DNA from: Bryobacterales bacterium
Lineage (GTDB): Bacteria > Acidobacteriota > Terriglobia > Bryobacterales > Bryobacteraceae
Reading direction: 5' to 3'
NCBI GenBank assembly: GCA_020851655.1
Contig: JADZCI010000021.1
Span: 1-38,907, forward strand
DNA length: 38,907 nucleotides
The notes under the pieces are model-generated. The model made no database searches. It was given only the letters and a program-made list of their open reading frames with translations, and was not told the origin of the DNA. Below are positions 22,340 to 38,907 of this stretch, in pieces; position 1 is the first letter of the stretch; every line of letters starts with the position of its first letter. The position numbers and the translations under genes are program-made.

Positions 22340-24814
22340 TTACGGAAGCCGGCCGGTGACGCGAGCAAGCGTAGCGGATTGGGCGATGAGCCGGCCGCCG
22401 GCAAAGACGTTCAACCCCCGGCCCCGGCCGAACTTTTGTCCGTCCTGATCCCACAAGATGGTGAGCGATTGCCCGTGGTAAGGCACGCCTTCCAGGCAGA
22501 ACCACGGCCATGCTCCGGCGGGAAGAAGCGGATTCACTTCGACCACATCGTCGGCTCGCGGGCGCAGCCCGGCCACTCCGGTGATGACGAGGTCGGCAAA
22601 TCCGGAATGGTTGTAGTGATCGCCGCGGCCGTTGAACGTCCCTTTCTTGATTTTCCGCGCGCGGGCATGCCATTCGCCGGTGAACGGGTTCAGATTCTCA
22701 TCGACGAACGCCATCCGGCTGCCGTCCGGCAGCGTCAGTTGCTGGCTTCTGGCGTAAATGAGGAACGTCTTGAAGTAGTCGCTGGCGGTGATCGCCGTTT
22801 GCGCGCGGCCGTTCAGCACATTGGCCAGGGCTTTCAGCGTGATCGTGGTTGCAAACGGCCAGCTCGGGCCGTTCCACTGGCAGTCGTCGCCGGATTCGGC
22901 AATGGCGAACGCGGGATGACGCCGTTCGGCCGTCGTGGGACCGAACGGCGCAAAGAAGCCTTCCGGGTCCATCAGTTGTTTCCAGGCGGCTTCAAAGCCG
23001 CGCCCCGGCGACGGCAGATCGAATAACCAGGGCGTATAGCCGATGGCTTCGCGAACCGAGGCGAACGAACCGGATTCGAGCAGTGTTTCAAAGAACTGCT
23101 GTTTGGGGTTCCATAGCCGCTCTTCTACGAGCGTCTTGAGCGTGGCTGCCTTTTCTTCGAAACGCGCGGCGATGGCGGGCTTGCCGGCCAGCCGGGCGAT
23201 GCGCGATATCGCCACCGCATTGCCGTACATGTAGCTGTTGATCGACGGGCGGGCATTCCTGGCTTTGCGGCCGCCGGAGATGGACTCTTCCATTGCATCG
23301 CGCACATCGTATTGCCAGAAGAGCCCGGACGGGAGCAGGCGGTCGCGTTCCCAGGCCGCATAGTCGAGCAGGAGAGGATCGAGAAGCCCGGTGACTTCGC
23401 GTTTGCATCCGCCGGCGAGGAACCGTTCATAGACCGCCGCCGCGGTCCAGTTCGAGTACTGATGATAATTGCGCTGCAATCCCCCGCCATCGCCGGATCG
23501 CAGCCAGAAGTCGAGGTCCTGTCCGGTATAGCGCGGGTCCCGCAGCCAGCGGCCTTCGGCGATGTGGTGTCCCAGTGCGGAACTGATGGCGTTGTACTCG
23601 GTCGCGTGCTTGACGGGGCGGAGGAATTCAGTGATGACGAATCCCGCCGGAGTCTGCCGGATGTGCTTGCGATAGGCCCACCAGCGGTAATACCAGGTGC
23701 GTTCCACGTCAGGGTCCGGGCAGTGTAGGAACGGGATGTTCTCGACGAGCCAGGGCCAGGCGCGCTCGTCCGGGATATAGGAAACGACGTCCGGCGTGGG
23801 GTGCGAGTCGAAATCGTCGATGTAGTGGCGGAACTGTGCGCGGTCGAGGATCTCGGGCGCCGCGAAATCCGCGGCGAGACGGCTGGCCAGGGATGCCGCC
23901 AGCGGGCCGGGATGGATCGCGACGCGATAGCGAAACACCGCCGAGGCGCCCGCTGGAATCGTATAACTGCCGTCCCGGCTCTTGTCCTTCATGAAATCGT
24001 GTTCCCCGAACGGATTGGCGGCGCACAGGCCATATCCGCGGGCATGCCAGAAAGCGGGATATTTCGGGTTGGCGGGATGATCGAACAGCGTAACGCCTAA
24101 CTGCCGCCCCGCAACAGTGGCGGTGTAATCGACCCACCCGGCGCGCTGCCCCCACACCTGCTTGGTTCCGGTGAGGCCGTTCGAGTTGGTGATGACCGCG
24201 CCGCGATCTTCCCGAAACTCGTCGCGGAACCGGAGCCCGAGCGCGCCTTCCTCGGTGTCGCCGAAACGGAGCGGATGATCCTTGGGTGCGCGCAGCGTGA
24301 CGCGCACGTCGGCAATACGGGTCTCGCCCCACACCTTGAAACGGAACGACTGTTCGATTTCCCCAAGCTCTTTTCCGCCGGGAGCGATGAGGCGGAACAA
24401 ACCGGTGACGGTGTCACCCGCGGCGGCAGGCTCGCCCGCCGCTACAATGCGTCCGGTAACGTCGGGGCCTTTGTCCCGCCAGAAGTCGACTCCATTGATA
24501 TCGCCGTGCGCATACCACAGCCCGTGATGCCATACGTGGTCCTGCGATTCGCCCTCGATCTTTTCCACTGGGTAGCCACGCGTGATCGCCACACCGTTGG
24601 CGGCGCGAAGAGGATGGAGGAACGGTTGGGGCCACTCGCGTCCGTAGTAGAAGTTGGAGAACGGCTGGCCGTTGATCGTGATCTCGATTCTGCCCGGGTG
24701 ACGGATGAAGCCGATGGCGGCGCTGTCCGCGAACAAGGGCAGGGCCGCGGCCAGCAGCATGACGGTGCGCAACGCGCGAACTCCGCCGGGACAAGCCGCC
24801 CAGTTGTTTGTCAT
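22340..24814 (-). CDS. Exported PmoA-domain (DUF6807) / MGH1-like glycoside hydrolase fusion
   Basis: The protein has 824 residues from the ATG at 24814, which overlaps the upstream DUF1593 stop (ATGA); the frame is open further upstream but without homology. Residues 12-32 are a signal-peptide core. Residues about 36-310 are a PmoA/DUF6807 domain with DHVWHHGLW at 92-100. Residues about 350-800 are an (alpha/alpha)6 glycosidase related to MGH1/GH63, with [13 protein letters not shown] at 502-514, [12 protein letters not shown] near 522, [10 protein letters not shown] at 646-655 and [14 protein letters not shown] at 731-744. PmoA-domain proteins have been linked to sugar degradation loci. The fusion suggests one polypeptide doing two steps on a plant or microbial glycan. 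The linkage cleaved is unknown. Confidence 0.85.
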
Positions 24815-26232
24815 AGCTGGGATGGAAAGATCGTGACGATAACGCGGCGGTAGCGGGTGAGCGGCGGTGCGCCGTTGTCGGTCACGGCCAGAACGATGTG
24901 GACAGTCTCCGGCTTGGCGACTTTCGGCGCGGTGAACCACGCCTCCGCCTGGCCGGCATTCTCAATGGCCAGCGCCGCGGGCGTACGTGAATTCGAGACC
25001 GGTACCGTGCTGGGCTCGCCGTAATAGATCCACTCGTAGCTCAGGCTGTTGCCATCGGGATCGGTGGAGCCGGCGGCGCTGAGGTTGACCCGCTCTCCGG
25101 ACTGCGCGCTCAGCCTCGCCGGGTGATTCAAGTTCGCCACGGGCGGGTGGTTGGCCGCCGCGAACGGCTGGATGGTCCAATCCATGCGTGCGGAAAAATC
25201 GTTCTGGTAAGCTTCGCGCCAGCGCCAGATGGTGACCTTGTTGCCCGAATGCCACTTTCCATCCACGCCCTTTGCTTCGTCTTCGGCATCGGTCCAGAAC
25301 GGCCTGCTTTCGGGTTCGATGAGCCACTTGCGCATCCTGGGCGTGTAGAACTCGTACCGCCCGCCCCAACTGCCCCAGTCCGGGTGCTCAGGGTCGCCCA
25401 ATCCGTTCCCGATCAGGTAGAGGAAACTTGGTGTGTCGCCTTCCATCAGGAACTTGGTCACCGGATAGAGCGCGCCGAGCGGCCCCTTGGCGCGCACGTT
25501 CTTGTCGAGCCAGGGATTGTCCACGATACTGAAGTCGGCGCCAGTGAAGCGGCCGTGGAAGTTGTCGCCGCTGATCGCGCTCCATGTGGCGTGGTGGTAG
25601 GCCCCGGCGGCGTGGTAGCCAGGACTGGCGATGTAGAACAGGGAAGGAAAGGTCTTCCTGATCCACGGTCCGCTGTCGTCCTGATCGGAGATGGTGTAGA
25701 CGCGCAATTTGGCGGTGAACTTGTCGAGATCCTCCGGCGAGCGCGTGGCCCGTACTTTCCAGAGAGCCTGGGCGAGGCAATTCGGGCCGCCCCAGACAAT
25801 CACCCAAACGGGCCGCGGATCGTCGCGGTCCACCACTTCGATGATGCGTTCCGAGCCCGGCGAGTCCATTCCCTTGCCGACGGCGCGCATGCCGAAGTCC
25901 GGCCTTCCGTCGCGGATGACGGACTGCAAGTACTCCTCCCCCGGAAATCCCGGCTCGTGCTTCAACAGGTTGGCGTGAACCTTGCCGTAGGCGCCAACGA
26001 GGCGGCGTATGCTTTCCGGCGCGGTCTTGTCGCGTTGATGAACCGAAGTGGTGGCGACGAGTCCTTCGATGTCCCACTGGTTGGAGTAGACGAGAAAGCG
26101 GATCATGGATTGCGTGTCGTCGGGCTCGTTCTCGATGTCGGTGAGCACGATGACGCGTGGCTTCGGCCCGGCCGCGGCGAGCGCCAGCGCGGTGCACGCA
26201 CCCAGCAGGAACAGGATTGAAGCGCGTTGCAT
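24811..26232 (-). CDS. Exported DUF1593 protein, Sde182-like, with C-terminal Ig-like domain
   Basis: The protein has 473 residues. A signal peptide ([20 protein letters not shown]) is followed by a nucleoside-hydrolase-like domain with acidic metal motif [13 protein letters not shown] (D32, D38, D39) and a [15 protein letters not shown] strand near 145. The last ~100 residues form an Ig/cadherin-like unit ([18 protein letters not shown] and [19 protein letters not shown]). This is the layout of DUF1593 / Sde182, described as a cellulose-binding nucleoside-hydrolase-like protein. It may hydrolyse a glycosidic bond in a plant-derived oligosaccharide. It is coupled to the PmoA-GH gene and follows its paralogue after 13 bp. 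Confidence 0.87.
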
Positions 26233-26245
26233 GGTCCTATTTACA

Positions 26246-27535
<1,290 letters not shown>

Positions 27536-27572
27536 GGACTCAGGGTACGGCTCAAACGCATCAGGCGGGACA

Positions 27573-30500
27573 TCAGAATTCAAGCCTCATGTTGAGCTGC
27601 AGGACTCGCGGCGATCCGTTCACGCTGGTGACGCGTCCGAACGTCGATTGCGTCGGATCCACTCCCGGCGCCGCGAAGTTGGTGTGATTGGTGAAGTTCA
27701 ACATGTCCAGAGACAGGACGAAACGCGTCCGCTCGTAGATGTTGAAGTTGCGCATCAAACGGATATCCCAGTTTCTGATTCCATCGGCGCGCATCGAGTC
27801 GAGGCGGAAGGGGAAGACCCGGACGTGATAAGCGCCGGGCTGATTTCCGCTTCTTCCCTCGAAGCCGGTAAAGCCACTCGGAATCGCGCCCGAGCCTTTG
27901 TAGGCGATCGCGGGATCGAACCAGCCATGGATGTCGGCCGAGTGCACGGCGTCGTGTCTTGCGACATCGGCGATTTGGTTGACGTCGCCGTAGTAGAAGC
28001 GGTTGGCCCAAACCAACGGCGGTCCGGACTGGCGTTGATAGATCCAGCTCACTTGCCAGTCGCCGACGACATGCCGGAGCGGATTGCTGGCGAGCCACTT
28101 GCGGCCCTTGCCAAACGGGAACTCAAAAATTCCGCTCCACACAAAGCGGTGCGGCCGCATGTCGCTGCTGGGAATGTCGACGAAAGACGTATCGAACTCG
28201 TTCATGTAGGTCTGAATTGTTCCGGACGCCCAGGTGTACATGACAGCGGTCTGAAGGCCGCGCGAAAGCCTCTTCTCGAACTGGACCTGCAAATCGCGGT
28301 ACACGTTTAAGCCGCGGGTGGCGTCGAGCGAGCTTCCAGGCCGCATGCCCGTCAAGGTCCCCATTTGCGGGAAACTCCGCAGCAGGACGTTCTTGCGGAC
28401 CACGGTGGAGGTGAACAGGCTTTGCCCGGCGAGATACTTGTACAGCGCCGGATCCGAGCCCGCCAGCGGCGCCAGGTTGCCGAGGTAGAACGGGTTGGTC
28501 ACGTTGCCGTTCATGTCGTTGTCGACGGCGGCGTTGCGGACATTTCCGGTGGCCCAGAAGTTGGCCGGGAGGTAGTTTATGCGGTTGGGGTTCCAGGTGC
28601 GGGAACGCGCGCCGGAGTAGGCGATTTCCAAGACCATGTCGCTGCGGAACTGGCGCTGCACACCGATACGCCAGCGCTGCTGCTGGTCCGGAACAAAGCC
28701 CCAGGGCATGGATGAGAAGGACCTGCCGGCCATGATCATTGGTCCCAGCGTGTTGCTGACGGGCATGTCGAACCGCGTGCCGTTGGCGCGGACCGGGAAC
28801 GGATCGTGCATGGGTGTGTGCGAGGCGCTCAAGTTGCCGGCCGCTCCCGTGCCGCAGCAGAACGACAGGCCGTTGTCATTGCTGATGACCGTGTCGGTCG
28901 GCTGGCTGTAGCCGAGCTGGCTGGGGCGCACCGAGTTGTTGACGTTCAAGGTGTCGTAGAAGAGGCCGTAGCCGGCGCGCAGGACAGTCTTGTCGTCGAT
29001 CGAATACGCCACGCCGGCGCGCGGCAGAAACAGGTGCGTGCCTTTGGTGAAGCGGTCCTGCCTGGCGCCGAAATACTCCGGCCCGCCAACCACTTTGAAG
29101 GACGAGGCCGGCATTTCGGCCAGCGGCGCCCGGGCGTAAGCGGCCTGCACGAGGTCGGTGATGGGCAGCTTGATGTCGTCATAGAACTGCGCGCCGATGC
29201 CGCGGTTGAAGCGCTCGGCCATGCCTGTCTCGCGCTCGTAGCGCATGCCCATGCTGACGGTGAGCTTCCGCGATACGCGCCACTCGTCCTGCAGGTAAAG
29301 CGCGCGATAGCGGTTGGTCCAATAAGCCGAGTCGACCGTGTCGATGGTGATGCCAGTGGGAACGCCCATCATGAACGCGGCAAAGTCCAGGCCGTAGTTG
29401 GAGGCTGTGTTCACCACGTCGTTGGCGCGCATGTACGTGTTGGCGAAGGTGTACTGGCCCGAGGAGTTGTTCGGGTTGAGAATCGGCTGCACATACCGCC
29501 GCTCGCTCCAGCCGTACTTCAACGTGTGGGAGCTCATGACGGTGTTCATGCCGAGTTTGAGTTCGATGGTGGTGCCGCGGCCCCGGTAGGCCTCATAGGC
29601 GTATTCGCGGCTGAAATTCTGCAGGCCGCCCGAGAAGTTGATGCGCGGCAGCGTCGTGAAGGCGCCGGCCTTTGCGTCGATGTAGGCGGGGAACCCGAAC
29701 TCGGTCGGCTTCTGCGCCGTCTGGACGGGAATGCGCAGGCCTTCGATAAACCGCGTGCCGCTCAAGGTAATGTCCAGCAGGTTGGACGGGTTGATGGTCC
29801 AGTTGTGATTCACCGATCCGCCGATGTTGCGGCGGTATCCGCCGCCGTCATGCAGCCCGGGAAATGTTTCGCGTGTCCAGTCGCCCGTATAGTCCTGGCG
29901 TTCGCTCCAGTACCACTTGAAGTTGAGCCGGTTGGAGTCGTTGATGAAATAGTCGTTGCGGTTGAGCAGGGACTTGAAGCGATCCTTCTGGCCGACAGCG
30001 GGATCGAAATGGTTGTTTATGCCCTCTTTGGTGACGAAGCCGGGAACATTGGTGGCCTTGGGGTAGATCTTGGCGTAGTCGCTGAATACCGGATTCAGAA
30101 CCGGTATGCCTTTGTTGCCCGGGAACGGCGTGCGGACGACGCGGTTTCCATCCTGGCGCGCCGAACGGGGATCAAAGACCGTGTATTGCACCGGATCAAT
30201 GGCCTGGATGTCGGAGAAATCGCCGTTGTACCACGAGTCGTGCGGAACCGAGCGGGCTCCGGTGCCGGCCGAATCGATGGCGTAGCCGTTGTAGGTGAAA
30301 AGGAAGAAAAGTTTGTCGCGCCCGTCGAGGATCTTGGGAATGCGGACCGGTCCCGAGATGGTGCCGCCGAAATTGTTCGAGCGGCCGCTGACCTGTTTGG
30401 GATCGTTGGGATTCTTCGTCCCGGCCGCCACCTGCGCTTCATAGGCCAGGCGCGTGAAGTGCGGGGTCGCGTTCCAGCGATTCTGCCAGTGCTGGTCGAA

Positions 30501-31271
30501 GATCGAACCGTGCAACTGGTTAGTGCCCGAACGGCTGCTGACGTTGATGGTGGCGCCGGAGGTGTGTCCGAACGAGGCGTCGAAGCTCGATGTCTCGAGC
30601 TTGAATTCTCCCACCGCGTCGATTGGCGGCACGTAGCCGACGCGGCGCTCGGTTCCGGTCACCGGCGCGCCGTCGATGGTGTACTCATTCTGGCCGACGT
30701 TGCCCGCCGTGTTGAACGACGTGGTTCCGCCCACGTCGAAGGCGCGCTGCATGCCGCTGGGGCTGCCGGTCCACTGCATGCCGGAAGCCAGGCCGGCCAT
30801 GAGGAACGGGTTCATGGAGGGCACGGGCAGTTCGGCGATTTCGCGCGTGCTGACGATTCGTCCGCCCGATGCCGAGCGCGTTTCGAGCAGCGGCGCTTCG
30901 CCGGTCACTTCAACCGTTTCGGCCACCTGGCCGACCTCCAACGCAACGTCAACCACCAGCCGGGTGCCGACGGTGAGCGTCAGCCCGGTGCGGGCCGTCT
31001 TTTTGAAGCCCGGCGCTTCAACCGTCACCGAGTAGGCTCCGGGGTTGAGCAGGGGAACTTCGAAGAAGCCCGTGTTGTTGGTGGTGGTGCGGCTTTGAGC
31101 GTTGGTGGCCTCGCTGACCACCACCACCTGCGCCGCCGGAACCATCGAGCCCTGCGGATCGGTCACGGTTCCGCTGATGCTGCCGCGAGATTCCTGGGCG
31201 TTGGCGCCGAGGGCCAACAGAAACACGGCGGCGGCGAGCAGCCGGGTCAAACTGGGACGTCGTGTCGTCAT
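27573..31271 (-). CDS. TonB-dependent receptor, Oar-like, with N-terminal carboxypeptidase-regulatory domain
   Basis: The protein has 1232 residues from the ATG at 31271, supported by AAGAGGA 6 nt upstream; upstream in-frame ATGs exist. A signal peptide (MTTRRPSLTRLLAAAVFLLALGANA) is followed by a CarboxypepD_reg-like domain (GSISGTVTDPQGSMVPAAQV), the plug (QVAETVEVTGEAPLL, then an NEYTIDGAPVTG loop) and a long beta-barrel ending in LQLNMRLEF with the expected terminal aromatic residue. Such receptors import large substrates over the outer membrane using TonB energy. It lies between a second receptor and the DUF1593 genes. No TonB, ExbB or SusD gene is in the window. Confidence 0.94.
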   Translation of the reverse strand: MTTRRPSLTRLLAAAVFLLALGANAQESRGSISGTVTDPQGSMVPAAQVVVVSEATNAQSRTTTNNTGFFEVPLLNPGAYSVTVEAPGFKKTARTGLTLTVGTRLVVDVALEVGQVAETVEVTGEAPLLETRSASGGRIVSTREIAELPVPSMNPFLMAGLASGMQWTGSPSGMQRAFDVGGTTSFNTAGNVGQNEYTIDGAPVTGTERRVGYVPPIDAVGEFKLETSSFDASFGHTSGATINVSSRSGTNQLHGSIFDQHWQNRWNATPHFTRLAYEAQVAAGTKNPNDPKQVSGRSNNFGGTISGPVRIPKILDGRDKLFFLFTYNGYAIDSAGTGARSVPHDSWYNGDFSDIQAIDPVQYTVFDPRSARQDGNRVVRTPFPGNKGIPVLNPVFSDYAKIYPKATNVPGFVTKEGINNHFDPAVGQKDRFKSLLNRNDYFINDSNRLNFKWYWSERQDYTGDWTRETFPGLHDGGGYRRNIGGSVNHNWTINPSNLLDITLSGTRFIEGLRIPVQTAQKPTEFGFPAYIDAKAGAFTTLPRINFSGGLQNFSREYAYEAYRGRGTTIELKLGMNTVMSSHTLKYGWSERRYVQPILNPNNSSGQYTFANTYMRANDVVNTASNYGLDFAAFMMGVPTGITIDTVDSAYWTNRYRALYLQDEWRVSRKLTVSMGMRYERETGMAERFNRGIGAQFYDDIKLPITDLVQAAYARAPLAEMPASSFKVVGGPEYFGARQDRFTKGTHLFLPRAGVAYSIDDKTVLRAGYGLFYDTLNVNNSVRPSQLGYSQPTDTVISNDNGLSFCCGTGAAGNLSASHTPMHDPFPVRANGTRFDMPVSNTLGPMIMAGRSFSSMPWGFVPDQQQRWRIGVQRQFRSDMVLEIAYSGARSRTWNPNRINYLPANFWATGNVRNAAVDNDMNGNVTNPFYLGNLAPLAGSDPALYKYLAGQSLFTSTVVRKNVLLRSFPQMGTLTGMRPGSSLDATRGLNVYRDLQVQFEKRLSRGLQTAVMYTWASGTIQTYMNEFDTSFVDIPSSDMRPHRFVWSGIFEFPFGKGRKWLASNPLRHVVGDWQVSWIYQRQSGPPLVWANRFYYGDVNQIADVARHDAVHSADIHGWFDPAIAYKGSGAIPSGFTGFEGRSGNQPGAYHVRVFPFRLDSMRADGIRNWDIRLMRNFNIYERTRFVLSLDMLNFTNHTNFAAPGVDPTQSTFGRVTSVNGSPRVLQLNMRLEF

Positions 31272-31305
31272 GATCATTCCTCTTGCATAAAAATTCATGT
31301 ACGCG

Positions 31306-31323
31306 ATCCTATGCAATCCTATG
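31306..31323. repeat. Tandem ATCCTATG direct repeat upstream of the receptor
   Basis: ATCCTATG occurs at 31306-31313 and again at 31316-31323, spaced 10 bp centre to centre (about one helical turn). On the coding strand it reads CATAGGAT twice, 35 bp or more before the receptor ATG. It could be tandem half-sites for an activator, or overlap a -10 element (TAGGAT). Confidence 0.5.
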
Positions 31324-31430
31324 TTGAGCAAGCTATCATTGTGGCCGGTCCGAGTCAAGAGAAATGTGTGAATTGCGCGGTTTGGCGGGGCCACTTTCCG
31401 CTTGGCGGAATTTGCGCCCCGCCGGGCGGC

Positions 31431-34400
31431 TCAAAAAGAGAAACGCAGGCTGAGTTGAACCTCGCGGTTGGGCGTTGCGGCTTCGGTGATGGTGGCGAAC
31501 TGGGGCGTGTTCACAAAGCGGTTGGGCGTGCCCAGGTTGGTGTGGTTCAAGGAATTGAAAACCTCGAGGCGGAACTGGAGGCGCGCGGCCTCGGTAAGGG
31601 CGAACTCGCGGACCAGCGCGGCGTCGAGGGTCTGCATGCCAGGACCGTAGACCGTGTTGCGTCCCGCGTTGCCGAACGTGTAGGCGGACGGGGCGGCAAA
31701 GGCTTCCGTGCTGAACCAGCGGCTGGAGGTGCGCGTGCCGGGGCCGAACAGGGGCGCGCCGGTGTAGTTGGCGCGAATCGGATTTTCTCCCAGGATGGTT
31801 CCCGCATTGGCGGTGTCGCCGAAGACGGAAATCGTGAACGGGAAGCCGCTTTGCGCCTGATAGATGGCCGACAGCCGCCAGAGGCGCGTCAAGGCGTGGA
31901 GCCAGCCCCAGCGTGACGAATGGGGCAGGTCGTAGACGGCGCTGAGGGCAAAGCGATGGCGGATATCGCAGGCGAGCCCTTTTTCGGCGCGGAGATTGTT
32001 GTTGTCCTGCGGCACTGTGGATTCAAACATCGGAGAACGGAAGTCCGGGGCGTCGCTCAGGTTCTTGGCAAACGTGTAGTTGGCCAGCAGGCTAAGGCCC
32101 GAGAAGTAACGGCGGCGCAGGTTGACGTAGCCCGCGTCGTACCAGCTCTTGGCCGTGTTTTCGAGGATGTTCACGCCGCTCACGGGAAACGTTCTGCTGG
32201 CCACGGTGATGTCGTCCGGCAACTCGGCCGCATCGGAGAAACTGGCCGTCTGATAGGGGCGGCGCGGCTGGACCAGGCCCGGGCCGGGAGGCGCGTTGTT
32301 GATGAGATGGGCGCGCTGCAGGTGAAATCCGCGGGCGCCCTGGTAGCCGGCTTCGAGCGTGGTCTGCGCGGCAAGAACCTTCTCCAGAGAAAAGCTCCAC
32401 TGCTGGATATACTGTGGCGGCGGCCGCGTTTCGAACCCGGCGAAGCTCACCACCGTCTGGCCGAGCACGGGCGGCGCGAAGTTGAATGTCGTAATCGACG
32501 GGATGAAGTTGTTGCTCTGGTTCGTCTCGGGGAAGACCAGCGGGACATTGTGCAACTGGTTGCACCAGGTGTTCATGTTCACCGGCGTGTAGAAGATGCC
32601 GTAGGCGGCGCGCACGACCAGCCCCAGCCGGGGCACGTGGTGCGAAATTCCGAAGCGCGGCGCAAAGCGTTTTTTATTCGAGAACATGAGACCGCGCGGC
32701 AGGCCCTCCTGGCCGCCAATGACGGCGCGCAGTTGGCCGTTTTCGACCAGCAGGTTGCTCCACGGGCGGGCGATATCGCGCAGCGGGCTCATGTATTCGT
32801 AACGCAGGCCGGCCTCGATGGTCGTATTCGCGGTGACGCGCCAACTGTCCTGCGCGAAGGCGTCGAGATACCACTGGCGCAGGTCCATGCTGGGGATGCC
32901 GGCCTGGCGCTGCCGCACGACCGGCAACTCAAGCAGGAAGCTGGCCAGCGCCGCGCCGGTGCCGTCGGGGGTGGCCGTGCGTGTGGTGAAGCCGTTGGTG
33001 AACTGGTAGTAGCCGCGGTTTTGAAAGAAGCCCCACATCGGCCAGACATAGTGCCGGTAGCTGACGCCGAACTTCAGCGCGTGCCGGCCGCGATGCCAGG
33101 AGACGGTGTCACGGCCTTCATACAACCCGTCCCATTCCTTCGCCGGGGTGGCGGCAAAACTGTCGCCGAAGCCCGAGTAGCCCTGGACGGCGAACCACGG
33201 CGCGCCGTAGGCGCCCTGGCCGCCAAAGCCAACGCCCTCGATGCCCAGTTCGGAAACGATGTCGTTGCTTTCGCTGTTTTCCGACGAACGGTGCATGGCG
33301 AGGCGCGAGACCGCGAACGAGGCGGTATTCACCGCGGCGGCAGAGATGATGTGGTTCCACGCGCCGATGACGTGCTGGGACATGTTGTCGTGAAAGGCGC
33401 CGAAGCCCGGCAGGTTCTGGGGCATGAAGCCGCGTTCTTTGCTGGCCGAGTAGCGGCCGTAGACGACATCGCCGCCGCGGAAGACGCGGTCGAGCCGGAA
33501 GGTGCCCTGGTCCTGCCCGAGGCGGTGTTTGCGCACGTCGAGAAGGTTGTTGGAGTCGACGCCCATGCCGGCGCCCATGTTCGGGCGCACCACATACTTG
33601 TCCAGCATGATCGAGGCAGCCGGGCTGAGCAGGCTGGCCGGGATGCGGTTTTGCGGAAACTGATCGCGGAGGATCTGGGGGTTGCCCGGACTCACCGGGC
33701 GTGAAGGGTCGAAGTCCGGATTATCGCGGGCGCTGAACGGATTGAAGACATCGACGCCGGCCTCGGAGAAATCGCCGGCCACCTCCATGCCGGTGGGCAC
33801 CGTGGCCACGCTGGTCATCGCTTTCACTTTGCGCAGGCCCTCGTAGTTGGCGAAGAAGAACGTTTTTCCGCCGGGCAGCGGGCCGCCGAGCGAGGCGCCG
33901 AAGTTATTTTGCGTAAGGCGGCTCTCACCTTCCATCTCGTTGAAGTTGCGCGCGTCCATCGCGTCGTTGCGCAGAAACTCGTACATGGTTCCGTGCAGCT
34001 TGTTGGCGCCGGAACGCGTGACGATGCTGATCTGGCCGCCGCCCGCGCCGCCCATTTCGGCCGAATAGCTGCCGGTCTGCACCTTGAACTCCAACACGGC
34101 GTCGGGCGACAAGCTTAGGTTTTGAGCATTGAAGGTGGGATCAGTGTTGGTGGCGCCGTCCAGCAAAAAGTAGTTGGCGTTGGGCCGGTTCCCGCCGATG
34201 CTCAGGGCCGAAGGCTGCCCGGGTCGCCAATACAGGGGATTCATGTCGCCGCGTTGCGCGCCGTGGCCGGCGTGCGAACCGGGCACCAGCAAGGCGAGAT
34301 CGAGCAGCGTGCGGCCGTTGAGCGGGAGTTCGCGTATCGATTGCTGCTCGACCACTTCGCCGAGACTGGCGTCGGCGGTCTTCAGAAGCTCGGCGGAGCC

Positions 34401-34742
34401 AGTGACATCGATCGACTCGGAAGCCTGTCCCAGCGAGAGGACGACGTCGAGCCGCATCTGCTGGCCGACTTCCAGGCGCACGCGCCGCGTGAAGAGCGCA
34501 AAGCCCGAGGCTTCGACGGCCAATTCGTATTCGCCCGGAGCGAGGCTGGCGAAGTCATAGAGTCCTTCGGCGCCGCCGGCCGCGCTGCGAACCGCGCCGG
34601 TCGCGGCCGATTTCAGTTGCACCCGCGCGTTCTGAACGGGCCGCCGCTGCGGATCCTCGATTGCGCCGCCCAGCGTGGCGAAATTGACTTGCGCCCACAA
34701 CGGAGCGGCAATTCCCCATAACAAGACACCCACATGCCTCAT
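31431..34742 (-). CDS. TonB-dependent receptor, Oar-like (second copy)
   Basis: The protein has 1103 residues. A signal peptide (RHVGVLLWGIAAPLWA) is followed by a carboxypeptidase-regulatory-like beta domain (GAIEDPQRRPVQNARVQL), a plug with SIDVTGSAELLKTADAS, SIRELPLNGRTLLDLALLVPG and a YFLLDGATNTDPTFNAQ loop, and a barrel ending in VQLSLRFSF. It is clearly related in architecture to the following receptor but about 130 residues shorter, so the two probably bind different ligands. It is the first gene of the minus-strand glycan locus and is divergent from the sugar-acid operon, sharing a 129-bp promoter region with it. Confidence 0.94.
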   Translation of the reverse strand: MRHVGVLLWGIAAPLWAQVNFATLGGAIEDPQRRPVQNARVQLKSAATGAVRSAAGGAEGLYDFASLAPGEYELAVEASGFALFTRRVRLEVGQQMRLDVVLSLGQASESIDVTGSAELLKTADASLGEVVEQQSIRELPLNGRTLLDLALLVPGSHAGHGAQRGDMNPLYWRPGQPSALSIGGNRPNANYFLLDGATNTDPTFNAQNLSLSPDAVLEFKVQTGSYSAEMGGAGGGQISIVTRSGANKLHGTMYEFLRNDAMDARNFNEMEGESRLTQNNFGASLGGPLPGGKTFFFANYEGLRKVKAMTSVATVPTGMEVAGDFSEAGVDVFNPFSARDNPDFDPSRPVSPGNPQILRDQFPQNRIPASLLSPAASIMLDKYVVRPNMGAGMGVDSNNLLDVRKHRLGQDQGTFRLDRVFRGGDVVYGRYSASKERGFMPQNLPGFGAFHDNMSQHVIGAWNHIISAAAVNTASFAVSRLAMHRSSENSESNDIVSELGIEGVGFGGQGAYGAPWFAVQGYSGFGDSFAATPAKEWDGLYEGRDTVSWHRGRHALKFGVSYRHYVWPMWGFFQNRGYYQFTNGFTTRTATPDGTGAALASFLLELPVVRQRQAGIPSMDLRQWYLDAFAQDSWRVTANTTIEAGLRYEYMSPLRDIARPWSNLLVENGQLRAVIGGQEGLPRGLMFSNKKRFAPRFGISHHVPRLGLVVRAAYGIFYTPVNMNTWCNQLHNVPLVFPETNQSNNFIPSITTFNFAPPVLGQTVVSFAGFETRPPPQYIQQWSFSLEKVLAAQTTLEAGYQGARGFHLQRAHLINNAPPGPGLVQPRRPYQTASFSDAAELPDDITVASRTFPVSGVNILENTAKSWYDAGYVNLRRRYFSGLSLLANYTFAKNLSDAPDFRSPMFESTVPQDNNNLRAEKGLACDIRHRFALSAVYDLPHSSRWGWLHALTRLWRLSAIYQAQSGFPFTISVFGDTANAGTILGENPIRANYTGAPLFGPGTRTSSRWFSTEAFAAPSAYTFGNAGRNTVYGPGMQTLDAALVREFALTEAARLQFRLEVFNSLNHTNLGTPNRFVNTPQFATITEAATPNREVQLSLRFSF

Positions 34743-34764
34743 GGGAAGTAAGCGTAAAGCGTTG

Positions 34765-34780
34765 TGGACTTAAATGTCCA
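34765..34780. promoter_or_regulatory. Inverted repeat in the divergent receptor / sugar-acid operon promoter
   Basis: TGGAC (34765-34769) and GTCCA (34776-34780) flank TTAAAT in the only AT-rich patch of the 129-bp divergent region. It is placed 22 bp upstream of the receptor start codon. Its symmetry suits a dimeric repressor of the LacI or GntR kind, which would co-control both directions. No regulator gene is in the window. Confidence 0.4.
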
Positions 34781-34871
34781 TAATCGGAACCTACTACCCG
34801 CCACGCGGGGCAGGCGCGGCGGCAGGCAACATTGCGGCGGCCCGCCGGTACATGATGGACAAGACAGCCTT

Positions 34872-35543
34872 ATGGAAAAGCGGCTTGCCCTGATCCACAC
34901 GAGTCCGGTGCTCGTTCCGATGTTCGACGCGCTTTGCCGGGAGAAGTTGTCCGGGATGGAGCGGTTCCACGTCGTCGACGAGAGCCTGATCCGCAACACG
35001 ATTTCCGCCGGCGCATTGGAGAAAATCACCATCCGGCGGCTGGTGGCGCACATTGGGAGCGCATTTGAGGCGGGCGCGACGGCGGTGTTCGTGACGTGTT
35101 CGTCGATCGGCCCGGGCGTGGCCGTGGCGCGCCAGCTCTTCGACCAGCCGGTCTTCCGGGTGGATGAAGCGATGGCGGCGCGAGCCGTCGCCATGGGGCG
35201 CCGGATCGGCGTGCTGGCCACACTGCGCACGACGCTTCAGCCGACGGCGCGGTTGATCGAGCAAACCGGCGCGGACTCGGGCGCCGGGTGCGAAGTGACG
35301 GCGAGCCTTTGTGAAGGGGCTTTCGAAGCGGTTCTGTCCGGCGATGGCGCCCGGCACGACGAGCTCGTCCGGAAGAGTTTGACCAGTCTGGCCGGCCACG
35401 TTGATGTGATCGTGCTGGCGCAGGCGTCGATGGCCCGTGTGCTGGATAGCAGGCCGCATGGCGCGCTGTCCGTCCCGGTGCTATCGAGTCCGGCATTGGC
35501 TGTCGAGCAGATTCGTGAAGCGCTCGGTCCGGACCGCTCATGA
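34872..35543 (+). CDS. Asp/Glu/hydantoin-racemase superfamily protein, single catalytic cysteine
   Basis: The protein has 223 residues from the ATG at 34872. The aspartate/glutamate racemase fold is seen in the N-terminal ALIHTSPVLVPMFDAL, the first catalytic motif FVTCSSIGPGV with C76, and RIGVLATLRTTLQPT in the second domain. The second catalytic motif, normally a Cys in L-G-C-T, reads VLAQASM at 181-187, with no Cys. A two-base racemase is therefore unlikely; arylmalonate decarboxylase and related isomerases or lyases also use only one Cys. It is the first gene of an overlapping sugar-acid operon (ATGA into the transporter), so it probably acts on a branched or oxidised acid intermediate. 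Confidence 0.85.
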   Translation: MEKRLALIHTSPVLVPMFDALCREKLSGMERFHVVDESLIRNTISAGALEKITIRRLVAHIGSAFEAGATAVFVTCSSIGPGVAVARQLFDQPVFRVDEAMAARAVAMGRRIGVLATLRTTLQPTARLIEQTGADSGAGCEVTASLCEGAFEAVLSGDGARHDELVRKSLTSLAGHVDVIVLAQASMARVLDSRPHGALSVPVLSSPALAVEQIREALGPDRS

Positions 35544-36778
35544 AGTCGCGGCATGCGGTTCTCGCGCTGCTGGTGCTTCTGTCGGTCATCACGTTTCTGG
35601 ACCGCCTGGCGATTGCGGCGGCGGGTCCTCGGATGCAGAGCGATCTCGGGTTGGGGCCGGAGCAGTGGGGCTGGGTGCTGGGCGCGTTTGTGCTGGCCTA
35701 CGGCGCGTTCGAGATTCCCACCGGAGCGATGGGCGACCGCCTGGGGCAGCGCAGAGTCATCACGCGAATTGTCGTCTGGTGGTCCGCCTTCACCGCTCTG
35801 ACCGGCGCGGTGAGCGGCTTCGTTCCTCTGCTGGCGACGCGGTTTCTGTTCGGCGCGGGCGAAGCCGGGGCTTACCCGAACATGGCGGGCAGCGTGGCGC
35901 GATGGTTTCCGCGCGCTGAGCGGGCGCGCGCGCAGGGCTTCATCTGGGCCGGAAGCCGCGCGGGCGGCGCATTGGCGCCGCTGGTGGTGGTTCCACTGCA
36001 GGCGCGGTTTGGCTGGCGGGTGACGTTCTGGATTCTGGGAGGCATCGGTTTGGTGTGGGCCGCCGCGTGGTGGCGCTGGTACCGCGATGACCCGCCGCGG
36101 CAACTCGCTGGCGCGGGAGTGGACCATGCCGCAACGATCCATCAATCAGCCCCGTGGGCCGAGTTGATCCGCAGCCGCCAGCTTTGGCTGATTGTCTGCA
36201 TGTACGGCTGCTACGCCTGGGGCTCGTGGTTCTACTTCTCCTGGTTGCATACGTATCTTGTGCGCGGGCGCGGCTTCAGTGAAGGCGCGATGGCTGCGAT
36301 CTCGGCGTTCGCGTTCGCCTTTGGCGCCGCCGCCAATCTGAGCGGCGGTTATCTGGGCGACTACTCGGTGAAGAAGTTTGGCATCCGGAACGGCCGCCGG
36401 CTGACCGGCTGCGCGAGCCTGGGCGGAGGAGCCCTGTTGCTGCTGGCAACCGCGCTGACCCGCGATCCCATCGCCGCCACGGTGCTGATCTCGCTCGGGC
36501 TGGGCGTCACCGACATCATGCTGCCCACCGCATGGGCCATTTGCGTGGACATGGGCGGACGCTATACGGGAACGGTCACCGGGACCATGAACACCGCGGG
36601 CCAACTGGGCGGCTTTCTGTGCACGGTACTGTTCGGATATATCGTTTCGATGACTGGAAGCTATCATCTTCCGCTGATTGTGATTGCCGCGATGCTGGCG
36701 GTGAGCGCCCTGCTCTTCTCGCGCATCGACGCCTCGCGGCCCTTACTGGCGGATCCAAAGGAACATTCGAATGCCTGA
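35540..36778 (+). CDS. MFS transporter, anion:cation symporter (sugar-acid) type
   Basis: The protein has 412 residues with twelve predicted membrane helices. The first loop motif is GAMGDRLGQRR, and there is a GAGEAGAYPNMAGSVARWFPRAERARAQG segment after TM4 (shown in part) typical of the ACS family, which includes hexuronate, glucarate and galactonate permeases. It overlaps the racemase-like gene by 4 bp and the RuBisCO-like gene by 8 bp. It should import the acid that the rest of the operon degrades. The exact substrate cannot be read from sequence. Confidence 0.92.
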   Translation: MKSRHAVLALLVLLSVITFLDRLAIAAAGPRMQSDLGLGPEQWGWVLGAFVLAYGAFEIPTGAMGDRLGQRRVITRIVVWWSAFTALTGAVSGFVPLLATRFLFGAGEAGAYPNMAGSVARWFPRAERARAQGFIWAGSRAGGALAPLVVVPLQARFGWRVTFWILGGIGLVWAAAWWRWYRDDPPRQLAGAGVDHAATIHQSAPWAELIRSRQLWLIVCMYGCYAWGSWFYFSWLHTYLVRGRGFSEGAMAAISAFAFAFGAAANLSGGYLGDYSVKKFGIRNGRRLTGCASLGGGALLLLATALTRDPIAATVLISLGLGVTDIMLPTAWAICVDMGGRYTGTVTGTMNTAGQLGGFLCTVLFGYIVSMTGSYHLPLIVIAAMLAVSALLFSRIDASRPLLADPKEHSNA

Positions 36779-38054
36779 CTGGAGCGACAGCCGGATCTAC
36801 GCGCATTACCTGATCGAGACCGCTTTCCCGGTGGAACAGGCGGCCGAGACCATGGCGGGTGAACAATCCTCCGGGACCTTTGTCCGCGTGCCCGGCGAGA
36901 CCAGCGAGCTGCGGGCGAGACACGCGGCTCGCGTGGAGAACATCGAGCTTCTGGAGCGCGTATCGAGCCCGTCGCTACCCGGTTCCGGGATTCCCGCGGG
37001 CCAGGCCGGGCCGCCCGTTTACCAGCGCGCCAAGGTGCTGCTTTCGTGGCCGCTGGACAACCTGGGACCGTCGCTTCCGAACCTGATGGCCACCGTGGCG
37101 GGCAACCTTTTTGAACTGCGTGCGTTCTCGGGATTGAAGTTGCTGGACCTGCGGCTGCCGCCGGCGTTTCTCGATGCGTATCCGGGTCCGCAGTTTGCCG
37201 TGGCGGGCACACGCCGCCTTGCCGGCGTCGAGCATTTGCCCCTGGTTGGCACGATTATCAAGCCGAGCGTTGGTTTGACGCCGGAGGCGACGGCGGAGAT
37301 GGTTCGGACGCTGGTTGGCGCCGGGATCGACTTCATCAAAGACGACGAGTTGCAGTGCGACGGTCCGCACTGCCCGTTCGAGGCGAGGGTGGAAGCCGTG
37401 ATGCGGGTCATCAACGATTCGGCATCGGCGGCGGGCAAGAAGGCGATGTTCGCGTTCAACGTCACGGGCGAGGTGGACCAGATGAAGCGGCGCCACGACA
37501 TCGTCGCCGCGCATGGCGGCAACTGCGTGATGGTCAGCCTGAACGGCGTGGGACTGGCGGGCCTGACCGCGTTGCGGCGGCACTCGCAAGTACCCATACA
37601 CGCGCACCGCAACGGCTGGGGCATGTTCGACCGCTCGCCGGCGCTGGGCATGAGCTTTGTGGCGTGGCAAAAGTTCTGGCGTGTGGCCGGGACCGATCAT
37701 ATTCACGTCAACGGCCTGCGGAACAAGTTCTGCGAGAGCGACGCCTCGGTGATCGCTTCGGCGCGGGAATGCCTGACGCCCATGTTCGACGTGCCCGGCA
37801 AGGGCTGCCAGATCATGCCTGTGTTTTCCTCGGGGCAATCGGCGGGCCGCGCCTTTGACACGTGGCGCGCGCTGGGCAGCGCGGACCTGATCTTTGCCTG
37901 CGGCGGCGGGATCGCCGCGCATCCGGGCGGACCGGCGGCCGGAGTCCGCAGTGTGCGGCAGGCGTGGCAAGCGGCAATGGACGGACTCACCGCCGATGAG
38001 GCGGCAGCCAGGCACACCGAACTCAGGCAGGCGCTGGAGAAGTTCGGGCGATGA
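36771..38054 (+). CDS. RuBisCO-like protein, candidate 3-oxo-isoapionate-4-phosphate decarboxylase (OiaX-type)
   Basis: The protein has 427 residues, a form IV RuBisCO-like protein. Equivalents of RuBisCO active-site residues, by motif alignment, are E31, T36 and F37 (for W66), N112, K164 in TIIKPSVGL (for K175), S166 (for K177), carbamylation site K190 with D192-E193 in IKDDE, H279-R280 in IHAHRNGWG, H312 in HIHVNG, K319, and S353 in PVFSSG. Thus the metal-carbamate site is intact but K177 is lost, so CO2 fixation is unlikely. Neighbouring DUF1537 kinase and sugar-acid transporter genes suggest action on a phosphorylated 3-oxo acid as in D-apionate catabolism. A methionine-salvage enolase role is the alternative. 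The kinase start overlaps its stop (ATGA). Confidence 0.88.
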   Translation: MPDWSDSRIYAHYLIETAFPVEQAAETMAGEQSSGTFVRVPGETSELRARHAARVENIELLERVSSPSLPGSGIPAGQAGPPVYQRAKVLLSWPLDNLGPSLPNLMATVAGNLFELRAFSGLKLLDLRLPPAFLDAYPGPQFAVAGTRRLAGVEHLPLVGTIIKPSVGLTPEATAEMVRTLVGAGIDFIKDDELQCDGPHCPFEARVEAVMRVINDSASAAGKKAMFAFNVTGEVDQMKRRHDIVAAHGGNCVMVSLNGVGLAGLTALRRHSQVPIHAHRNGWGMFDRSPALGMSFVAWQKFWRVAGTDHIHVNGLRNKFCESDASVIASARECLTPMFDVPGKGCQIMPVFSSGQSAGRAFDTWRALGSADLIFACGGGIAAHPGGPAAGVRSVRQAWQAAMDGLTADEAAARHTELRQALEKFGR

Positions 38055-38907
38055 GTTCGCTTCCGGCCGGACCGCTCATCACCTGGTACGGCGACGATTT
38101 TACGGGCTCCACCGATGCGCTGGAAGTTCTGGCGCGCGGCGGGTTGAAGGCGGTTCTGTTTTTGGAACAACCCGCCGGGGACGAGGCGCGCCGCGAGATG
38201 GCGGGAATGCAGGCGGCCGGTCTGGCCGGCATCAGCCGCAGCCAGAGCCCGCGGTGGATGTCGGAGAACCTGCCGGGAATGTTTTCGTGGCTGCGCGCAA
38301 CGGGAGCGCGCATCTGCCACTACAAGGTCTGCTCCACGTTTGACAGCTCGCCGGAGACCGGCAACATTGGACGGGCGGTCGAGATCGGACGCGCGATCTT
38401 TCAGACCCCGGTGGTTCCCATCATCGCGGGAGCGCCTGGGCTGCGCCGCTACACGGCCTTTGGAAACCTGTTTGCGTCATTTGGGTCCGAGGTCTACCGC
38501 ATCGACCGCCACCCGGCCATGTCGCGCCACCCGGTGACACCCATGCTGGAAGCCGATCTCAGGAGACACCTCGCCCTTCAGACCTCGCTCGGAATCGGCC
38601 TGATCAGTTTGCCGGAGATGCTTAGCGGGGAAGCGCCGCGCCGTCTTCAGGAACTGGCCGATGCCGGCTGCGAGGCGGCGGTGCTGGATGTTTTCGACGA
38701 CGCGTCGCTGGTGGAAGCGGGCCGCGCCATATTGCCCGCCGGGGGCGAACCGCCCCGCTTTGTGGCTGGATCTTCGGGGGTCGAGCACAGCCTGATAGCG
38801 TGGTGGCGCGCGGCCCGAGCGTTGCCGCCGGAGGAGGCCGGCGTCAGGGTGGAAGGCGTGGACAGAGTGGTGGTGCTTTCAGGCAGTTGCTCGCCGGCCA
38901 CGTCGCG
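38051..38907 (+). CDS. DUF1537 four-carbon sugar-acid kinase, OiaK-like (3' end outside the window)
   Basis: The open frame codes 285 residues to the window edge; full-length relatives are about 410-430. The N-terminal acid-binding domain shows YGDDFTGSTDALE at 13-25, YKVCSTFDSSPETGNIG at 91-107, PIIAGAPGLRRYTAFGNLF near 123 and RIDRHPAMSRHPVTPM at 150-165. The C-terminal ATP-binding domain starts at VVVLSGSCSPAT and is cut off. DUF1537 kinases phosphorylate 3-oxo-tetronates, threonate, erythronate or 3-oxo-isoapionate. The overlapping RuBisCO-like gene favours 3-oxo-isoapionate. The identification of the kinase family is firm; the substrate is inferred. Confidence 0.88.
   Translation, partial: MSSLPAGPLITWYGDDFTGSTDALEVLARGGLKAVLFLEQPAGDEARREMAGMQAAGLAGISRSQSPRWMSENLPGMFSWLRATGARICHYKVCSTFDSSPETGNIGRAVEIGRAIFQTPVVPIIAGAPGLRRYTAFGNLFASFGSEVYRIDRHPAMSRHPVTPMLEADLRRHLALQTSLGIGLISLPEMLSGEAPRRLQELADAGCEAAVLDVFDDASLVEAGRAILPAGGEPPRFVAGSSGVEHSLIAWWRAARALPPEEAGVRVEGVDRVVVLSGSCSPATS

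Follow-up and report, generated by a model that had tools for sequence, protein, structure and literature searches.

We analyzed a window of 38,907 nucleotides, the entire contig JADZCI010000021.1 (here C21) of the Bryobacterales bacterium assembly GCA_020851655.1, and focused on a four-gene operon at its right-hand end. The operon encodes an Asp/Glu-racemase-fold protein (RAC), a major facilitator superfamily (MFS) transporter, a RuBisCO-like protein (RLP), and the start of a DUF1537-type kinase. The operon is real, belongs to an apiose locus, and represents a variant of the OiaK/RLP module that spans several phyla; RAC probably provides an alternative, redox-neutral entry to the kinase-RLP step. 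The pathway family is already known, and the RAC step would be an addition to it. Genes were called by homology and codon usage. The features of the operon are as follows:

34872-35543, + strand: RAC, 223 aa, Asp/Glu/hydantoin-racemase-fold protein with a single catalytic Cys76 (VTCSS) and Gln184 (LAQASM) at the second-Cys position
35540-36778, + strand: MFS transporter of the D-galactonate/organic-anion type, 412 aa, TIGR00893
36771-38054, + strand: RLP, 427 aa, RuBisCO_large PF00016
38051-38907, + strand: N-terminal part of a DUF1537/OiaK-type sugar-acid kinase, SBD_N PF07005, open at the contig end
38781-38907, no strand: exact 127-base overlap between the window end and the end of contig C78, joining the window to D-apiose genes
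Contig C78 (locus L096, 9020-8536), - strand: remainder of the kinase, with PF17042 present on C78

The operon is joined to D-apiose genes

Successive genes overlap by 4 bp (RAC/MFS), 8 bp (MFS/RLP), and 4 bp (RLP/kinase), just as a first-pass annotation of the window had described. The window terminates at 38907 inside the kinase gene. The reverse complement of C78 opens with an exact copy of the final 127 bases of the window, and C78 and contig C235 likewise share 127 exact bases; both matches are presumably assembler k-mer overlaps. Because C78 continues the window through the exact overlap, the kinase can be completed, to 446 aa. The gene order RAC-MFS-RLP-kinase was seen again in the acidobacterial loci L014 (which ends after RLP), L015, and L016, and RLP-kinase-RAC sets with different layouts occur in Sphingomonadales and Bacteroidota. 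Since both the order and the set recur, the arrangement is not due to chance.

Beyond the kinase, C78 and C235 carry a convergent gene for an IclR helix-turn-helix/sugar-binding regulator, a DUF5060 glycosidase-like gene, a split transketolase, an FGGY kinase, a SorC regulator, a DUF2291 gene, an ATP-binding cassette (ABC) sugar importer with its binding protein, and a gene of the fucose-isomerase superfamily. The D-apiose cluster of Escherichia coli SE15 is supported by growth tests on D-apiose (PMC13001218). All eight components of this cluster that we compared have homologues beside the operon, contiguous with it via the exact contig overlaps, at 26 to 55% identity (permease, 55%; ATPase, 46%; DUF2291, 26%; binding protein, 40%; AplK, 46%; SorC, 41%; AptA, 48%; AptB, 40%). 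The fucose-isomerase-superfamily gene, a candidate for the D-apiose isomerase (apsI), scored 95 bits against SftI. In the nearest relative (G291), RAC adjoins a homologue of GH140-type apiosidases together with the same apiose and importer genes. By homology and position, the operon sits in a D-apiose locus, a context supported by the match of the genes past the kinase to all eight E. coli SE15 gene types; free apiose would have its own branch there. The first-pass annotation had proposed extending the contig past 38907 to look for ApnO, LerI, or other tetrulose-phosphate genes, and had named an unrelated downstream pathway as evidence against its reading; the extension brought in D-apiose genes, with no ApnO-type dehydrogenase among them.

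RLP and kinase are of the OiaX/OiaK kind, without ApnO

RLP, which is single-copy in the window genome, scored 215 bits against PF00016. Its best NCBIfam model is OiaX at 469.5 bits, below the curated equivalog cutoff of 700. Membership in the MtnW family of methionine salvage, which the first-pass annotation had named as evidence against its idea, was rejected, with MtnW models reaching 140 to 176 bits versus the 469.5 of OiaX. Its identity to annotated OiaX is 45%, and to RLPs of Xanthobacteraceae 64 to 68%. In the RLP tree it falls outside annotated OiaX and groups with the Xanthobacteraceae proteins. All 102 clade members have residues equivalent to RuBisCO K175, K201, D203, E204, H294, R295, H327, and K334. 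The K177 position is Ser in all clade members and Ala in rhizobial OiaX (3/3), whereas the H327 position is His in the window RLP and Gln in rhizobial OiaX (3/3).

Two reactions have been described for enzymes of this kind. In PMC6302742, the A. radiobacter K84 enzyme is cited as a decarboxylase (Carter et al. 2018), and the Xanthobacter autotrophicus enzyme, OiaT, is reported as a 3-oxo-isoapionate-4-phosphate transcarboxylase/hydrolase. Action of the OiaT type is somewhat favored for the window RLP, since it groups with the Xanthobacteraceae proteins and the X. autotrophicus enzyme is reported to work in this way. Such action would also account for the pathway having no need of a tetrulose-phosphate isomerase or aldolase. 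The RLP product could be L-erythrulose 1-phosphate or, alternatively, 3-phosphoglycerate together with a small acid; an enzyme of the OiaT type would be expected to turn 3-oxo-isoapionate 4-phosphate into 3-phosphoglycerate and glycolate.

The window part of the kinase scored 167 bits against SBD_N PF07005, with OiaK as the best NCBIfam model. When two overlapping parts of the kinase were scanned separately against OiaK (NF042436; cutoff, 700), they gave 320 and 129 bits, and OiaK was the best family for both. The MFS transporter scored 220 bits against TIGR00893, under the cutoff of 395.

Most often in relatives, a PGDH_C/NAD-binding protein comes after the RLP-kinase pair. As the hits included no NCBIfam model for ApnO, we give this protein that name for its place next to OiaX, OiaK, and ApnL. 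A search of the whole window genome found no ApnO, and the same search detected ApnO in five sister genomes, which served as positive controls. The lack of a visible ApnO-type dehydrogenase, noted earlier for the window, thus extends to the genome. That the gene merely lies past the contig end is ruled out by the joins to C78 and C235, which are without ApnO, and by the empty whole-genome search. The acidobacterial OiaK/OiaX pathway of the first-pass annotation therefore survived in part: RLP and kinase are of the OiaX/OiaK kind and stand in an apiose context, whereas the OiaX/ApnO apionate route is not supported, given the missing ApnO, the scores of RLP and of the separately scanned kinase parts below the curated cutoffs, the position of RLP outside OiaX, and its His at the H327 position.

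RAC retains one of two catalytic cysteines

RAC scored 75 bits against PF01177 in a Pfam scan. Its AlphaFold model (pLDDT, 91.4) matched aspartate racemase 1jfl with a Z score of 21.5 over 210 residues (root mean square deviation, 2.5), and RAC is accordingly predicted to have the two-domain racemase fold of the Asp/Glu racemase superfamily. Cys76 aligns with the catalytic Cys79 of allantoin racemase, and Gln184 stands at the position of its Cys184. PMC12661438 describes the two cysteines as a conserved feature of the superfamily. The pair of catalytic cysteines of two-base racemases is absent from RAC, with C76 and Q184 kept in 52 of 52 RAC sequences compared. Since Gln184 stands where the second catalytic Cys is expected, two-base racemization seems unlikely; the enzyme might instead catalyze single-base isomerization, a decarboxylation, or a lyase reaction.

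RAC recurs with RLP and kinase across phyla

We sampled 399 genomes of the same class, counting RAC at an identity of at least 40%. A close RLP was present in 31 genomes (one, in G420, a contig-edge fragment): 14 had RAC only, 6 had ApnO only, 11 had both, and none had neither. Among RLP loci, 25 had RAC without ApnO, 61 had ApnO without RAC, 4 had both, and 11 had neither (Fisher P = 2.4e-11, in a locus count that takes no account of relatedness and in which genomes with a distant RAC are coded as ApnO). RAC is found together with RLP and kinase in Acidobacteriota, in Bacteroidota, and in Sphingomonadales and other Pseudomonadota. A Rufibacter plasmid carries the minimal set, RLP-kinase-RAC-transporter, followed by a pectinesterase. 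MFS is present in 14 of 18 RAC-positive loci versus 1 of 56 RAC-negative loci. In the RLP tree, the RLPs of RAC-only genomes do not form one clade; the window RLP and that of G291 fall among relatives with both genes and stand apart from the large Sphingomonad/Acidobacteria RAC clade. As judged from gene content, RAC is a recurrent partner of the RLP-kinase pair, and not the extra gene that it had first been taken for. Of all that the first-pass annotation put forward, the RAC/ApnO distribution and the locus content most favor the companion suggestion that the gene signals a variant route or a different acid. A role as strict replacement for ApnO was also considered and is weakened by loci L015, L016, L018, and L032 and genome G333, all of which have both.

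The gene content of the loci differed between the two groups. Apiose dehydrogenase or ApnL was found in 0 of 18 RAC loci versus 27 of 56 others. RAC loci often contain GH127-type, GH78, GH42, GDSL esterase, and rhamnose-permease-like genes, and those of relatives also GH106, GH140, and pectinesterase or GH28. ApnO loci contain GntR regulators, tripartite ATP-independent periplasmic (TRAP) or ABC importers, ApnL, and Gfo/Idh/MocA dehydrogenases. No dehydrogenase is conserved across the RAC loci. Aldo/keto reductases and short-chain dehydrogenases/reductases (SDRs) were rejected as the general missing dehydrogenase, the former occurring in only five RAC loci and the latter not being enriched. 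Because RAC loci are devoid of apiose dehydrogenase and ApnL and conserve no dehydrogenase, a redox-neutral entry is favored, which suggests that RAC loci begin with a substrate requiring no oxidation.

Some of these loci deserve separate mention. A GH127/GH146-like family lies directly upstream of RLP in Sphingomonads and many Acidobacteria (L028, 8182-10005); its closest solved structure, 5opj, scored only 120 bits, so its specificity is possibly undescribed. On the Streptomyces plasmid NZ_CP108139.1 (L235, 5958-12197), a zinc-type alcohol dehydrogenase lies ahead of the RLP-kinase pair, and GH78 and GH2 come after it, with two GH28 genes nearby; the dehydrogenase may be a third entry enzyme, here in the context of pectin side chains. 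A plasmid of the halophilic archaeon Haloterrigena (L233, 7016-10585) has RLP, kinase, and ApnO-like genes with a TRAP transporter. On a Rhizobium gallicum plasmid (L232, 1-1633), a gene annotated as OiaX is flanked by two aldo/keto reductases and has no adjoining OiaK; the annotation may conceal another function. RAC is found beside DUF5060, IclR-type regulator, MFS, or GH127-type genes, with no close RLP, in L216 (G399), L218 (G010), and L211 (G027).

Proposed pathway and alternatives

We propose, with a probability of about 0.5, that the operon forms the acid branch within a locus for the use of D-apiose and pectin side chains and that RAC is the redox-neutral entry to the kinase-RLP step for an imported branched sugar acid. 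From the gene content, contig joins, fold, residues, and co-occurrence seen in the sequences, we infer every reaction and substrate as follows. The MFS transporter would import the acid, and RAC would isomerize it by cofactor-free, redox-neutral proton transfer with its single Cys as the base. The product would be a 2-hydroxy-3-oxo-4-hydroxy, 2-branched acid of the 3-oxo-isoapionate type, whose C4-OH the OiaK-type kinase would phosphorylate. RLP would then decarboxylate the phosphate or, more likely, decarboxylate, recarboxylate, and hydrolyze it, as reported for the Xanthobacter enzyme in PMC6302742; the end products in this latter case would be 3-phosphoglycerate and a small hydroxy acid. 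Neutral apiose would enter the neighboring branch of isomerase, FGGY kinase, and split transketolase.

Several observations weigh against this proposal. RAC occurs in eight sampled genomes without a close RLP, and a 52% identical homologue on a plasmid of Rhizobium sp. K102 (L168, 7971-8654) has FAD oxidoreductases, an aminotransferase, and ABC permeases as neighbors, a setting of the amino-acid or opine type. RAC is therefore not specific to the RLP pathway, and its chemistry may feed additional pathways. In the 11 genomes with both genes, RAC is mostly on a different contig from RLP; these RACs have unrelated neighbors where inspected, form a largely separate subtree, and possibly have another role. 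RAC and ApnO also share one short cluster in three Acidobacteria loci and lie 2 kb apart in a fourth (L018). A tree-corrected test of RAC versus ApnO was not significant, although it was underpowered (six independent pairs; median P = 0.25). The putative likeness to OiaT was judged from RLPs of Xanthobacteraceae. Finally, another contig of the window genome carries a weak ApnL-like gene (289 of 750 bits) with unrelated, non-sugar neighbors.

The best-surviving alternative is ordinary D-apionate catabolism, in which the MFS transporter imports D-apionate, an unrecognized dehydrogenase encoded elsewhere makes 3-oxo-isoapionate, and OiaK and OiaX/OiaT finish the route, with RAC as an accessory, e.g., for D-/L-apionate interconversion at C2. 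The best models of RLP and kinase, the apiose context, and the weak ApnL-like gene all fit this view, as does the pairing of RAC with ApnO in L015, L016, L018, and L032; C2 epimerization alpha to a carboxylate would also be natural for a racemase fold. However, ApnO was found neither in the window genome nor in the 14 RAC-only genomes, RAC is without the second Cys expected of a two-base racemase, and RAC loci share no conserved dehydrogenase. We consider this explanation unlikely.

Less probable still is a special case of the redox-neutral entry in which the substrate is aceric acid (3-C-carboxy-5-deoxy-L-xylose), a component of rhamnogalacturonan II (RG-II). RG-II also contains apiose, and the two sugars occur beside each other in side chain B. 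RAC would be an aldose-ketose isomerase, and the kinase and RLP would yield 3-phosphoglycerate and lactate without a redox step, or 5-deoxypentulose 1-phosphate. The ketose isomer of aceric acid is 3-oxo-isoapionate with CH(OH)CH3 in place of CH2OH and could in principle suit the kinase and RLP. Such a redox-neutral route is chemically consistent with the absence of ApnO, ApnL, and apiose dehydrogenase from RAC loci, and one Cys suits single-base, suprafacial proton transfer. The glycosidase and esterase genes in the RAC loci of relatives (GH127-fold, GH42, GH78, GH106, GH140, GDSL, and pectinesterase or GH28) also point this way, and among 39 genomes tested, none of the 17 with a strong GH127-type gene has ApnL, which occurs in 13. 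On the other hand, the GH127-type protein of relatives scored only 108 of 950 bits against the aceric acid hydrolase model and is nearer to the GH146 structure 5opj than to 5mqo, so that neither model nor PDB match supports it as an aceric acid hydrolase. No close GH127-type copy was found in the window genome or G291, there is no aceric acid hydrolase at the locus, and the GH127-type gene adjoins ApnO-type operons too (G325). We know of no aldose isomerase with the Asp/Glu-racemase fold, and the literature searched contained no description of bacterial aceric acid breakdown.

That RAC is a mere neighbor (regulatory, detoxifying, or amino-acid related) with no step in the RLP pathway, brought there by shared ancestry and joint transfer, would agree with RAC genes lacking an RLP and with the nonsignificant tree-corrected tests but is very improbable given the tight RLP-kinase-RAC sets in three phyla, including Bacteroidota, the RAC/MFS gene overlap and recurrent MFS-RAC pairs, the scatter of RAC-only RLPs in the tree, and the absence of RLP-positive genomes without both RAC and ApnO.

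RLPs are a test bed for the evolution of RuBisCO chemistry, and few RLP pathways are known. The kinase-RLP pair appears to be a module that can be entered through at least two different enzymes: ApnO or, alternatively, a protein with the racemase fold. If the proposed redox-neutral entry is correct, it would represent a new activity for the Asp/Glu racemase fold and a new use of RuBisCO-like chemistry, as well as a concrete candidate route for soil bacteria that digest rare branched pectin sugars. Except for the transporter, the operon proteins are soluble and directly amenable to testing.

Flanking features

Two further features border the operon on its left:

34743-34871, no strand: divergent intergenic region with the inverted repeat TGTCCATAAT/ATGATGGACA at 34775-34784 and 34852-34861
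31431-34742, - strand: large TonB-dependent-receptor-like gene from the open reading frame list, divergent from the operon

The inverted repeat, lying in the divergent promoter region, is a possible, tentative candidate operator; no sigma-70-like site was found in 34743-34871. The receptor-like gene is a neighbor whose functional tie to the operon is only putative, and such genes cluster with other TonB-dependent-receptor-like genes in related loci. On the - strand at 22340-34742, five genes were named by eye: two resemble large TonB-dependent receptors, two resemble nucleoside hydrolases, and one more is secreted-protein-like.

Comparison with known systems

The rhizobial OiaX/OiaK pathway of D-apionate shares with the window locus a DUF1537 kinase adjoining an RLP with the same catalytic core, a plant branched-sugar context, and, at the annotated OiaX locus, ABC and DUF2291 genes. 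It differs in that the window RLP is only 45% identical to OiaX, scores below the cutoff, and has His and Ser where OiaX has Gln and Ala (H327 and K177 positions); the window operon is also without ApnO and has RAC and MFS in addition. As for OiaT of X. autotrophicus, the window RLP is 64 to 68% identical to RLPs of Xanthobacteraceae and groups with them, and no downstream isomerase or aldolase was found in the operon; Xanthobacteraceae loci use ApnO, ApnL, and TRAP/ABC transport where the window operon uses RAC and MFS. The apulose/transketolase cluster of E. coli SE15 (aplK, aptA, and aptB) corresponds to C78/C235 in its FGGY kinase, both transketolase halves, SorC, binding protein, ATPase, permease, and DUF2291; the C78/C235 genes adjoin the RAC-RLP operon and include a fucose-isomerase-superfamily gene, whereas E. 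coli has two SDR enzymes. RAC itself has the fold and the first catalytic Cys of the superfamily that includes allantoin racemase (3qvj), aspartate racemase (1jfl), and arylmalonate decarboxylase. Arylmalonate decarboxylase retains the opposite Cys from RAC, and RAC departs from the superfamily by its Gln in place of the second catalytic Cys.

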